A stretch of DNA of 55,732 nt from the NCBI RefSeq assembly GCF_902762735.1, contig NZ_CACWPP010000006.1, positions 1 through 55,732 of the forward strand. The letters run 5' to 3'. Below are positions 19,731 through 32,164 of this stretch, one piece after another. Source of the DNA: an uncultured Ruminococcus sp. GTDB taxonomy: Bacteria > Bacillota > Clostridia > Oscillospirales > Ruminococcaceae. The notes beneath the pieces were generated by a model. The model worked only from the letters and a program-made list of their open reading frames with translations. It was not told where the DNA came from and searched no databases. A program made the position numbers and the translations under genes. Position 1 is the first letter of the stretch; every line of letters begins with the position of its first letter.

Positions 19731-19918
19731 AAAACGTGTGCGGGGAAAGTCGGCAGTGAGTGCTTCGGGCTGACTTTCCCCCCGCATGGACGCGGGAGAA
19801 AAATATCACAGCGCACAGCCGCGCCCGCATCGCGCTGAGGTGTCCTGAAAAGGGGCATTTAGTGGAATTTACACAAGAAAACGATTTATTATATTCACAA
19901 ATTCTATATGGAAAACTG
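19731..19918. other. Intergenic stretch upstream of the purE promoter
   Basis: Together with the family B copy and the purE leader this makes about 510 bases without a supported gene (19670-20180). This part is GC-rich (CCCCGCATGGACGCGGG) and then AT-rich. Nothing else is recognised. Confidence 0.5.
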
Positions 19919-19947
19919 TTGAAATTATCCTGATAATATTGTACAAT
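19919..19947 (+). promoter_or_regulatory. Promoter of the purE operon
   Basis: TTGAAA, 17-nt spacer, TACAAT. Transcription would start near 19954 and give a leader of about 225 nt before the purE start. Confidence 0.75.
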
Positions 19948-19953
19948 ATTAAT

Positions 19954-20157
19954 GTAACATCGACTGCGTATGCAGCGGAACAGGGGGCGGCAGGTAATGA
20001 TGACAGCCTACGGTTTTTCATTCTTATATCCCATGATGGGCGGTGCCGAGTACGGATACCGTCTTATGTCCGCGCACTCTTGTCACACCTGTATGCGCAA
20101 AACACATAGTGAGTTTGACCGAATTTGAAACTGCAACGCTATTGTTGCAGTTTTTTT
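19954..20157 (+). promoter_or_regulatory. Structured purE leader, candidate riboswitch/attenuator
   Basis: Seen: the segment TGCGTATGC at 19965-19973 can pair with GTATGCGCA at 20091-20099 (9 bp with two G-U), enclosing about 117 nt. Overlapping GCGTATGCAG at 19966-19975 can instead pair with CTGCAACGC at 20131-20139, the 5-prime arm of the terminator (9 bp, one bulged A). The two pairings exclude each other, as in a transcription-terminating riboswitch. Inside are small hairpins such as CCCATGATGGG and ACGGATACCGT, and AGGT/ACCT pairing. I find none of the conserved cores I know for guanine, ZTP, PRPP/ykkC, THF or FMN aptamers. Inferred: purine-pathway regulation by an unidentified ligand or protein. 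Confidence 0.6.
20128..20157 (+). terminator. Attenuator terminator before purE
   Basis: A 10-bp perfect stem AAACTGCAAC / GTTGCAGTTT with a 6-nt loop is followed by a run of T ending at 20157. It lies only 24 nt before the purE start codon, so it must be read through for expression. Confidence 0.9.
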
Positions 20158-20180
20158 GGTTTGGAAGGAGTCTGGTAAAT

Positions 20181-20678
20181 ATGAAGAAAGTCGCAGTAAT
20201 AATGGGTTCTGACAGCGATTTCCCTGTGGTATCTAAGGCTTGCGCCGAGCTTAAAGCATACGGTGTGCCTTACGAGTGCCATGTTATGAGCGCACACAGA
20301 ACGCCCGCTCTGGCGGCTGATTTTGCTGACAAGGCTAAGGAGAACGGCTTTGGCGTTATAATTTGTGCGGCAGGCATGGCGGCACATCTGGCAGGCGTTA
20401 TAGCAGGTCACACCACACTGCCTGTTATCGGCATTCCCTGCAAGTCCTCTAATCTGGACGGGCTGGATGCTCTGCTGGCAACGGTGCAGATGCCCAGCGG
20501 CATACCTGTTGCCACCGTTGCCATAGACGGCGCGAAGAATGCGGCTATACTGGCTATACAGATGCTTGCACTGTCCGATGAAGGTCTGGCTGAAAAGCTG
20601 GAAAAGGCTAAGGCTGATATGATAGACGGCGTTAAGGCTAAGGACGCGGCTTTGCAGGAAAAGCTGGCGGCGCTGTGA
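20181..20678 (+). CDS. purE: N5-carboxyaminoimidazole ribonucleotide mutase
   Basis: 165 residues, class I PurE. It converts N5-CAIR to CAIR in de novo purine synthesis. Seen: the MGSDSDFPV start motif, [10 protein letters not shown] with the catalytic histidine, and [14 protein letters not shown]. Start ATG 20181 is preceded by GGAAGGAG; in-frame codons further upstream fall in the leader and terminator. It is the first gene of the locus, controlled by the attenuator just upstream. A class I PurE needs PurK, which is not in this window. The stop overlaps the next gene's GTG. Confidence 0.97.
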
Positions 20679-21328
20679 GCAGATACAAAGTTCTGCTGTT
20701 TGACCTTGACGGTACGCTGATGGACACAGCACCCGGCATATTCAGCACTGTGCGGTACACGCTGGCAAAGCTGGGGGTGGAAGAACCGCCTCAGCTGAAA
20801 AAGTTTCTTGGACCTCCGCTGCTGCGGTCTATGATGGACTACTGCGGGCTGGACGAGGAACGCGCGTGGCAGGCGGTGAGGATCTACCGCGAAAAGTACC
20901 CTAAGGACGACCTTTATAACTCGAAGAAGTTCGATGGTGTCGAAGAACTGCTTGCGGGGCTGAAAGCTGAGGGGTACACTCTCGGCGTGGCTACGAGCAA
21001 GCCCGAGCCTTTTGCGAGGAGTCTGCTGAAAAGGTTCGGACTGGATAAGTATTTTGACTATATCGGCGGTTCGGGCGTTGACGGCACGCGGGACAATAAA
21101 AAGCTGGTCATAGAATATGTGCTGGAAAATCTGGGTCAGCCTGACAGAAGCAAAGTGCTGATGATAGGCGACAGAGAGCATGACATCATCGGGGCAAAGC
21201 AGTGCGGCATCGACGGGCTGTATGCTCTGTGGGGGTACGGCAGTGCGGAAGAAGCGGCTGAATGCGGGGCTTCTTTCACGGCGGTCACACCCGAAGAATG
21301 CGGCAGGCATATCGCGGCGGCTGAATGA
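20675..21328 (+). CDS. HAD-family hydrolase (phosphoglycolate phosphatase-like)
   Basis: 217 residues. HAD subfamily IA phosphatase of the Gph/PpaX type. Seen: motif [13 protein letters not shown], motif II ATSKPE, motif III lysine region [15 protein letters not shown], and motif [15 protein letters not shown]. The GTG start overlaps the purE stop by 4 bases (GTGA), so expression is tied to purE. The substrate is unknown; a nucleotide or phosphoglycolate are possibilities from the family. The cap domain (about residues 17-80) is the short helical type. Confidence 0.9.
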
Positions 21329-27546: not shown

Positions 27547-27651
27547 ATGCTGACGATGACCGTCGGCGGGAAGATACGATAAAATATGACGATACCCATT
27601 GATACATCATCAATGGCAAACATACAGACAATAACAAGGAGGTCATTTCAA

Positions 27652-28368
27652 ATGAAAACACTTGACATTTACGAGGAGCTTAAAAGCAATTCCTATCCGG
27701 GAAGAGGCATCATCATCGGCAAGAGCGCTGACGGCAAAAATGCTGTGACTGCTTACTTCATCATGGGCAGGAGCGTCAATTCGCGCAACAGAGTATTCAC
27801 CGAAACTGAGGACGGCATAAAGACTGAGGCGGCTGATCCCTCCAAGCTGTCAGACCCCCACCTGATAATCTATTCGCCTGTAAGGGTGCTGGGCAACAAG
27901 ACCATAGTTACCAACGGCGACCAGACCGATACTATATATGAACTGATGGACAAGCAGCAGACTTTCGAGCAGAGCCTGCGCACAAGGGAGTATGAGGACG
28001 ATGCGCCCAACTACACCCCAAGAATTTCAGGCATAATGCACGTTGGTGACGGTCAGTATAACTATGCCATGAGCATACTGAAATCTGCTGACGGTGATCC
28101 CGACAGTGTTGAGAGATTTACTTTCAGCTATTCGTCCCCTGTTGCAGGCTACGGTCACTTCATACACACCTACATGGGCGACGGGAACCCTCTGCCCAGC
28201 TTTGAGGGCGAGCCTAAGAAGATAACCGTTCCCAACGACATCGACGAGTTCACCGACGGTCTGTGGAATGCGCTGAACGAGGATAACAAGGTGTCACTGT
28301 TCGTCAGATTTATCGACATCGAAACAGGCAAGGCTGTTTCAAAGATAGTTAACAAGTATTCAAAGTAA
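27652..28368 (+). CDS. purO: IMP cyclohydrolase, PurO type
   Basis: 238 residues. It closes FAICAR to IMP, the last step of purine synthesis. Seen: the PurO-family pattern SYPGRGIIIGKSADG near the start, AYFIMGRSVNSRNRVF, DPHLIIYSPVR, and a C-terminal HFIHTYMGDGNPLPSFEGEP (20 residues). This is unrelated to the cyclohydrolase half of ordinary PurH. Start ATG 27652 follows AAGGAGGT at ideal spacing. It complements the stand-alone AICAR transformylase 2.6 kb downstream, so the PurH activities are split over two genes. Confidence 0.88.
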   Translation: MKTLDIYEELKSNSYPGRGIIIGKSADGKNAVTAYFIMGRSVNSRNRVFTETEDGIKTEAADPSKLSDPHLIIYSPVRVLGNKTIVTNGDQTDTIYELMDKQQTFEQSLRTREYEDDAPNYTPRISGIMHVGDGQYNYAMSILKSADGDPDSVERFTFSYSSPVAGYGHFIHTYMGDGNPLPSFEGEPKKITVPNDIDEFTDGLWNALNEDNKVSLFVRFIDIETGKAVSKIVNKYSK

Positions 28369-30982: not shown

Positions 30983-32164
30983 ATGGCAAATGAGATGCTT
31001 TTGAAGTACGGCTGTAATCCTAACCAGAAGCCGTCAAGAGTTTTTATGGAGGACGGCAAGGATCTGCCTATCGAGGTGCTTAACGGCAAGCCGGGTTACA
31101 TCAACCTGCTGGACGCATTCAACGGCTGGCAGCTGGTAAGAGAGCTTAAAGCGGCAACAGGCATGTGCGCCGCAACTTCTTTCAAGCACGTATCACCTGC
31201 GGGTGCGGCTATCGGCAGACCGCTGACCGAAACTGAGGCAAAGATCTATTTCGTTGACGATCTGGGCGAACTTTCACCGCTGGCATGTGCTTACGCAAGG
31301 GCAAGAGGCGCTGACAGAATGTCCAGCTACGGCGATTTCATCGCACTGTCCGATGTTTGCGATGTTCCCACAGCAAAGATGATACAGAGAGAAGTCTCCG
31401 ACGGCATTATCGCACCGGGCTACACCGATGAAGCGCTGGAGATACTCAAGTCAAAGAGAAAAGGCACTTACAATATCATCAAGATAGATGAAAACTATGT
31501 GCCCGCTGAGATAGAGCGCAAGCAGGTATTCGGCGTTACTTTTGAACAGGGCAGGAACGAGCTGAAAATAGACAAGGCACTGCTTTCAAACGTTGTCACC
31601 GAGAATAAGGATATACCCGATGACAAGCTGGAAGACCTCATCATCTCGCTGATAACTCTGAAATATACACAGTCGAACTCTGTATGCTATGTAAAGAACG
31701 GTCAGGCTATCGGCATCGGTGCAGGTCAGCAGTCGAGAGTACACTGCACAAGACTGGCAGGCAGCAAGGCTGATAACTGGTGGCTGAGACAGAACCCTAA
31801 GGTAATGGCTCTGCCTTTCAAGGACGATATACGCAGACCCGACCGCGACAACGCAATTGATGTCTACATCGGCGATGAGTACGAGGACGTGCTGGCTGAG
31901 GGCGAGTGGCAGAGGATATTCAAGACCAAGCCCGAGCCGCTGACTGCTGAGGAGAAGAAGGCATGGCTTGCAAAGAATACCGATGTTTGTCTGGGTTCTG
32001 ACGCATTCTTCCCGTTCGGTGACAATATCGAGAGGGCTAAGAAGTCGGGCGTTGCTTACATTGCAGAACCTGGCGGATCTATCAGAGATGACAACGTTAT
32101 AGAGACCTGCAACAAGTACGGCATGGCTATGGCGTTCACAGGCATCAGACTGTTCCACCACTGA
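30983..32164 (+). CDS. purH: Stand-alone AICAR formyltransferase
   Basis: 393 residues. It formylates AICAR to FAICAR with 10-formyl-tetrahydrofolate. Only the transformylase half of PurH is present: catalytic FKHVSPAGAAIG with K68-H69, then SSYGDFIALSD, YTQSNSVCYVKNGQAIGIG, SDAFFPFGDNIE, and GGSIRDD with a terminal FTGIRLFHH. The N-terminal MGS-like cyclohydrolase domain is absent, and purO supplies that step. Start ATG follows GGAGGT. This clostridial form is shorter than bifunctional PurH (about 520 residues). Confidence 0.95.
   Translation: MANEMLLKYGCNPNQKPSRVFMEDGKDLPIEVLNGKPGYINLLDAFNGWQLVRELKAATGMCAATSFKHVSPAGAAIGRPLTETEAKIYFVDDLGELSPLACAYARARGADRMSSYGDFIALSDVCDVPTAKMIQREVSDGIIAPGYTDEALEILKSKRKGTYNIIKIDENYVPAEIERKQVFGVTFEQGRNELKIDKALLSNVVTENKDIPDDKLEDLIISLITLKYTQSNSVCYVKNGQAIGIGAGQQSRVHCTRLAGSKADNWWLRQNPKVMALPFKDDIRRPDRDNAIDVYIGDEYEDVLAEGEWQRIFKTKPEPLTAEEKKAWLAKNTDVCLGSDAFFPFGDNIERAKKSGVAYIAEPGGSIRDDNVIETCNKYGMAMAFTGIRLFHH

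Follow-up and report, generated by a model that had tools for sequence, protein, structure and literature searches.

The DNA upstream of purE in the window, that is, the whole stretch of 55,732 nucleotides from an uncultured Ruminococcus sp. that was analysed, probably encodes a ribosome-mediated transcription attenuator (19955-20157), which on the evidence of its sequence would represent the purine counterpart of pyrBI. In particular, a leader open reading frame (ORF) has its stop codon on an intrinsic terminator, and inside the ORF a covarying hairpin is followed, at a fixed spacing, by a pyrimidine-purine (Y-R) step; all of these elements can be read directly in the aligned leaders. We infer from them that the leader is translated, that RNA polymerase pauses within it and that the ribosome masks the terminator, the signal being perhaps the purine nucleotides, by way of a link to GTP. 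The coordinates of the features are collected in Table 1.

Table 1. Features of the purE leader region in the window
Feature	Position	Strand	Remarks
Proposed attenuator region	19955-20157	+	leader and terminator before purE
Promoter TTGAAA-17-TACAAT	19919..19947	+	10/12 consensus matches (scan); conserved in the nine-leader alignment
Shine-Dalgarno-like AGGGGG of the leader ORF	19982..19987	+	AGGAGT or similar in relatives
Leader ORF, 43 aa, MMTAYGFSFLYPMMGGAEYGYRLMSAHSCHTCMRKTHSEFDRI	19997..20128	+	stop TGA 20126-20128; equivalent ORFs in relatives
Conserved hairpin in the ORF	20039..20063	+	outer stem GGCGG (20039-20043) with CCGTC (20059-20063); 23-sequence alignment A4, folds of 28 cores
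10-nt spacer and proposed pause site	20064..20074	+	C 20073 (-1), G 20074 (+1); fixed spacing, Y-R step
Intrinsic terminator	20127..20157	+	stem 20127-20154, then T tract (scan); the stem begins with the GA of the leader's TGA
purE (AIR carboxylase)	20181..20678	+	Pfam AIRC, E 3.4e-62; ATG at 20181; first gene of the purine cluster

The first-pass annotation of this locus had suggested an attenuator controlling the purine locus, with a promoter, a structured leader and a terminator 24 nt upstream of purE. All three elements are present in the sequence, the leader measuring about 180 nt, and the suggestion is supported, since each of them is conserved ahead of purE in the genus. Specifically, the promoter, of the sigma-70 type, is nearly invariant in an alignment of nine leaders, the window's among them, and the terminator, detected by a scan, is kept across the genus. 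The terminator arms AACTGCAAC and GTTGCAGTT (20127-20157) are near-invariant in the leaders of the genus while the flanking leader drifts; in other words, the letters are kept and not just the pairing. An AT-rich stretch upstream of the promoter (19870-19915, with ACACAAGAAA and AAATTCTATAT) is also conserved in relatives and may be a regulator site or an UP element. Compared with its own shuffles, the leader folds with a z of -3.31 when the terminator is included; without the terminator z is -1.1 in the window and -1.15 on average over 28 leaders. Downstream, purE is followed by genes for a HAD phosphatase and for purF-like, purM and purN products (Pfam), the HAD phosphatase gene (20675-21328) overlapping the end of purE by four bases and standing between purE and the purF-like gene. 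The same purine cluster also holds, at 27586-28365 and 30983-32161, a PurO-like IMP cyclohydrolase (PF07826) and a PurH-related protein, the latter matching positions 76-311 of the AICARFT/IMPCHase model, which suggests that the two PurH activities are carried by separate genes.

The leader ORF, absent from the first-pass annotation together with the hairpin that it contains, ends with a stop codon that overlaps the first bases of the terminator stem. Leaders for comparison came from a DNA search of 150 genomes, a purE search of 29 genomes of the genus and 80 loci of a second collection, and the 28 leaders retained comprise 27 of the genus and one (L019) of a different genus in the same family. 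In 26 of these 28 there is an ORF of 35 or more amino acids with an ATG, a Shine-Dalgarno (SD) sequence and a stop at -6 to +2 nt of the terminator arm, while dinucleotide shuffles give a mean of 0.58%. The stop of the best-supported ORF lies -6 to +1 nt from the CTGCAAC arm in 26 leaders and at +13 or +15, inside the terminator hairpin, in two. Moreover, although between 6 and 21 codons separate the HS codons of the peptide core from the stop, depending on the leader, the stop remains on the terminator. As in attenuators of the pyrBI type, a leader ORF overlaps or abuts an intrinsic terminator before a gene of nucleotide synthesis. Left out of these counts was genome G001 (leader L021), in which some 0.5 kb, including a further gene, separates the leader from purE; by eye, this leader has the core, and its stop falls in the terminator loop. 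In that genome (L168, 1300-2100) the leader and its terminator precede a different first gene.

Leader peptides matched no Pfam or NCBIfam family above the cut-off. At purE, a profile built from 27 of them scores E 7.6e-8 or lower in 27 of the 29 genomes, most of its rows coming from the searched genomes and the main matches arising by construction; G001, which is not in the profile, reached E 0.005, and G020 gave nothing clear (0.109) and no match of PurE length. It is hardly credible that the ORF is an independent small protein gene and that the terminator only sets the level of purE. Such a gene would keep its open frame and its SD, as is observed, but both ends of the peptide drift (pN/pS of 1.16 before and 1.37 after the core in cluster A) and yet the stop stays on the terminator, and there is no clear second copy among the 29 genomes, where the other profile matches have E 0.0066 or worse. 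Mimicry of the PurE active site by the leader peptide was also considered and rejected, the local score being no better than that of shuffled leaders (mean z 0.20, with 2 of 28 above 2).

Inside the ORF, folds of the 28 core segments place a hairpin at the same position in most. Its outer stem was evaluated in alignment A4, which holds 23 of the 28 cores; those left out are L008, identical to L006 in this part, L005 and L011, which fold to the hairpin, and L020 and L022, which fold otherwise. Among 500 shuffles, of a kind that does not keep the relatedness of the sequences, none equalled the outer stem in the share of paired cells (96.5% vs 91.8%), in two-sided cells (6 vs 1.4) or in covariation (0.363 vs 0.282, and at most 0.230 when the stem is slid), and five did so in two-sided pairs (3 vs 1.2). 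Two measures fail to single out the outer stem, among them the number of further pair types, which is not above chance (157/500 shuffles). When outer and inner stem are taken together, 19 two-sided cells compare with 9.0 in shuffles (0/500), 8 two-sided pairs with 5.6 (24/500) and 22 further pair types with 17.3 (7/500). The outer stem reads GGCGG/CCGTC in the window, GGCAG/CTGTC in cluster C and GGGGT/ACCC in L019. Compared with random synonymous recodings, the core does not have a reduced folding energy (mean z 0.13, none of 28 below -1.64). A covariance model of the hairpin recognises the leader of G001 (E 5.5e-12), a close relative that is not in the model, as well as L036 (E 0.006) and L041 (E 0.0095), both before purE and with E-values that are rough; in searches of 79 and 38 sources no other good match was obtained besides these three and the window.

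The hairpin stem is separated by 10 nt from a conserved two-base step in the 24 leaders that could be placed. In the codon alignment, the -1 position of this step is a pyrimidine and the +1 position a purine in 28 of 28 leaders, the purine being G in 23 and A in 5. The codons concerned specify Ala (14), Leu (5), Ser (4), Met (3) and Val (2); that is, the amino acid varies and the bases are kept. Other leader codons end in G in 12% of cases, and when one to two leaders are taken per cluster, G stands at +1 in 10 of 11 (binomial P 5e-9 against the 12%). The candidate pause site was picked after seeing the alignment, and its spacing matches that of the his pause. As read from the sequence, a hairpin, 10 nt and a Y-R step are the layout of a his-type RNA polymerase pause. 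According to PMC9291695, the hisL hairpin occupies -30 to -11, the pause consensus is G-10 Y-1 G+1 and the pause is weaker at saturating GTP. The hisL and trpL pause hairpins are described there as lying in the leader ORF, with a Y-1 G+1 step following after about 10 nt, and the same combination of hairpin, spacer of about 10 nt, Y-1 and G+1 (G in 23/28, purine in 28/28) recurs in the purE leaders. The G-10 of the consensus is absent in the window, where the base at -10 is T, and across the 24 placed leaders the stem is followed directly by T, C or G.

The purE leaders differ from hisL and trpL also in having neither a run of amino-acid codons nor a competing antiterminator, which bears on the classical amino-acid attenuator, in which scarcity of charged tRNA for Gly, Ser, His or Cys would stall the leader ribosome. 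In the leader peptides His, Cys and Ser are indeed overrepresented, at 3.5, 3.4 and 2.4 times their mean frequency in 15 window genes, but this explanation is highly improbable, given that the peptides hold no regulatory codon run, that no conserved competing pairing with the terminator occurs in the 28 leaders, and that terminators of such attenuators stand more than 20 bp from the leader stop (PMC4824070), whereas here the terminator is on the stop.

In the pyrBI-like attenuator that we favour, the leader ORF would be translated behind RNA polymerase, and the hairpin, the 10-nt spacer and the pyrimidine-G step would hold the polymerase in the style of the his leader. The step following the pause would need a purine nucleotide (GTP in the window) and, because of the purine at +1, a shortage of GTP or ATP would prolong the pause. 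With purine nucleotides scarce, the long pause would allow the ribosome to catch up; standing at the stop codon on the 5' arm of the terminator, it would block the hairpin, and transcription would continue into purE (ON). With purine nucleotides plentiful, RNA polymerase would leave early and the terminator would form (OFF). PMC4824070 reports that termination drops from about 90% to less than 10% when a stop codon 28 bp ahead of a terminator is shifted to 5 bp, that terminator function returns beyond approximately 27-30 bp from the stop, and that within roughly the first 100 bp of a coding region terminators largely escape masking unless, as happens in pyrBI, RNA polymerase pauses. In the purE leaders, such a pause would come from the hairpin and the Y-G step. 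Against the pause model stand the missing G-10 in the window and the A in place of G at +1 in 5 of the 28 leaders. Moreover, wider leaders may pause otherwise or not at all, because outside the genus only L036 and L041 gave good matches to the hairpin model, which is a model of the genus and the only one with which the wider leaders were searched.

Taken one step further, RNA polymerase itself would be the purine sensor, a proposal that we advance tentatively and with some doubt. The hairpin-stabilised pause, with its obligate purine at +1, would read GTP (or ATP), the ribosome stopping on the terminator would turn a long pause into expression, and the device would take the place of the ZTP riboswitch found before purE in sister families. 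The resemblance to pyrBI (pyrL) of Escherichia coli lies in a leader ORF before a nucleotide synthesis gene, in a terminator suppressed by a closely following ribosome and in a coupling set by RNA polymerase pausing, as PMC4824070 and PMC5021804 describe it, pausing being the component that is inferred in the purE leaders. The two systems differ in the position of the terminator, which lies within the 135-bp leader gene in pyrBI (PMC4824070) and at the stop codon here. They would also differ in the signal, UTP in pyrBI and, in our proposal, a purine. The pyrBI pause occurs at a U-rich tract, whereas the candidate pause of the purE leaders is a conserved hairpin with a purine step.

The first-pass annotation had also interpreted the leader as a candidate new riboswitch with two mutually exclusive helices, namely an outer helix of TGCGTATGC (19965-19973) with GTATGCGCA (20091-20099) and an antiterminator helix engaging the first terminator arm, CTGCAACGC (20131-20139). 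The three strings lie at these positions and both helices can form in the sequence of the window, but neither is supported in relatives. In the sister leader L002, 91% identical, the outer arm is GTATGGGTA and is thereby broken. Across nine leaders, 69.0% of the cells of the outer helix are paired, against 64.9% in shuffles (58/500 as high) and 69.9% in a slid control, which pairs as well as the helix; the covariation score, the measure most in favour of the outer helix, is equalled by 24/500 shuffles, and the covariation of 19965-19973 with 20091-20099 in homologues, the refuting test that the annotation itself had named, speaks against the riboswitch. For the antiterminator helix the same nine leaders give 67.1% against 64.8% (64/500). 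Over the 28 leaders, pairing with the terminator arm is no better than in shuffled sequence, whether the leader (mean z -0.07) or its part before the ORF (mean z -0.09) is considered, and z falls below -2 only in L001, L002 and L017. On the shuffles, the slid control, the break in L002 and the pairing over 28 leaders, both helices were rejected.

That annotation had recognised no known purine, ZTP, PRPP, THF or guanidine aptamer core, and Rfam likewise matched no existing family: its covariance models gave no match at gathering score in the window, the best result on 19800-20200 was a chance microRNA match (E 3.4), and the loci of five relatives yielded nothing up to E 1. A new riboswitch or protein-binding RNA, with the helices just described or built on the hairpin 20039-20063, is very unlikely. 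Its case consists of a leader that folds better than shuffles, of the covariation of the hairpin itself and of a consensus fold of nine leaders with a covariation of 0.300 against 0.243 in shuffles (3/500), which contains the outer helix in a shifted form of 5 bp, two of whose pairs carry two-sided changes. However, this fold was derived from the same nine sequences, and outside cluster A only its hairpin is seen. An aptamer built on the ORF hairpin is unlikely because the loops, internal loops among them, and the inner stems differ in sequence and length between clusters. The consensus fold of cluster A (columns 32-166 of alignment A3; window 19968-20094) further displays helices between the SD and the HS codons and around the start codon. 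A pairing of the SD with the conserved CACTCT, taken from the consensus fold, was tried and abandoned, since it does no better than pairing with random synonymous codons (mean z -0.22 over 28 leaders, three below -1.64).

The conservation of the peptide raises a different possibility, namely that the core Y..GG......R....HS is an arrest peptide that stalls the ribosome on a purine-pathway metabolite, the position of the stall deciding termination. For their central 20 codons, the leaders of cluster A have a pN/pS of 0.39, as opposed to the end values given above, with a pS of 0.36 in the core, 0.35 before it and 0.35 after it. A column-permutation test over six clusters, which like the pN/pS clusters takes in 26 of the 28 leaders (L010 and L019 belong to no cluster), assigns the core a P of 0.003, the N part 0.44 and the tail 0.16; without the stem codons the core retains P 0.010 (A 0.024), both core values being confounded by the hairpin. 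Taken singly, clusters A (0.007) and E (0.003) carry the core signal, while F (0.057), B (0.107), D (0.33) and C (0.62) speak against an arrest peptide. A 6-residue motif is common to 44 leader peptides, a set that includes eight manually added peptides and a manually picked frame for L040, with an information of 7.95 against a mean of 7.13 and a maximum of 7.34 in 30 shuffles; at width 8 the information is 8.94 and the shuffle maximum 8.46. In favour of arrest, too, PMC5021804 reports more termination at the pyrL terminator when ribosomes stall upstream of it in cells without EF-P. In spite of these signals an arrest-peptide sensor is unlikely. The arms of the covarying hairpin are where the GG and R-L residues are encoded, and these residues change in concert from GG/RL to GR/CL, as base-pair compensation would have it, and the residue at the pause site varies while the bases are kept. 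Furthermore, the width-6 motif aligns elsewhere than at the HS end in 5 of 7 genus representatives, the window's included, and the spacing from core to stop varies. The metabolite-sensing arrest peptides TnaC and SpeFL resemble the purE leaders in having a short leader peptide with a more conserved inner part and a ribosome whose position decides transcription (in our case a proposal), and differ from them in that the purE leaders have a variable core-to-stop distance and that arrest and ligand are hypothetical here. Both TnaC and SpeFL act through Rho. As far as the sequences indicate, the peptide may matter too, with the hairpin and the pause site explaining part of the core; the coding signal of the core is something that the pause model does not need.

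Known controls of purine synthesis are regulators of the PurR type and the purine, ZTP and PRPP riboswitches. Among the 29 genomes of the genus, 20 of them at least 90% complete, neither PurR (PF09182, with a positive B. subtilis control) nor a purine riboswitch nor the ZMP/ZTP riboswitch (RF01750), both with positive controls, was detected, and RF01750 has no match in the window. In the order, RF01750 occurs in 140 of 247 genomes, a count made per genome. Its position is immediately upstream of purE, the same gene that follows the leader ORF, in 7 of 8 selected relatives, while the same search detected it at none of 12 leader-ORF loci.

After removal of duplicates and of upstreams shorter than 200 nt, 194 distinct purE upstreams were kept, 135 of them with a terminator. 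A stricter, order-wide filter finds the ORF in 61 of these, where 3.0 are expected; it undercounts, keeping 17 of the 28 genus loci and missing the window and 10 others. Without the genus loci, the ORF is present in 44 of 107 terminator-bearing leaders (2.5 expected), and 30 of the 44 stops lie at -6 to +4 of the terminator; these 107 may hold a few genus members, as the 80 loci of the second collection carry no GTDB genus label. Of the 31 terminator-bearing upstreams in a class-wide set of 48, three have an ORF, and one of the three belongs to the same order. With a sequence pattern after the published consensus as a proxy for the ZTP core, 22 of the 194 upstreams have the core, 71 have the leader ORF (the 28 compared leaders included), none has both (Fisher P 2.6e-5, uncorrected for relatedness) and 101 have neither, a count that weighs against the attenuator. 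By the stricter filter, none of 20 purE leaders with a ZTP core has the ORF. A literature search, in which purE is read as the word 'pure' and subscription journals are mostly uncovered, returned no report of a purE leader-ORF attenuator, and the text of the uORF4u paper contains no word beginning with 'pur'.

If true, the attenuator would explain how purine synthesis is controlled in gut bacteria in which no PurR, purine riboswitch or ZTP riboswitch is detected. It would also mean that RNA sensing and ribosome-polymerase coupling alternate at one and the same gene, and it would provide a GTP sensor that consists of RNA polymerase and a hairpin and can be tested directly.
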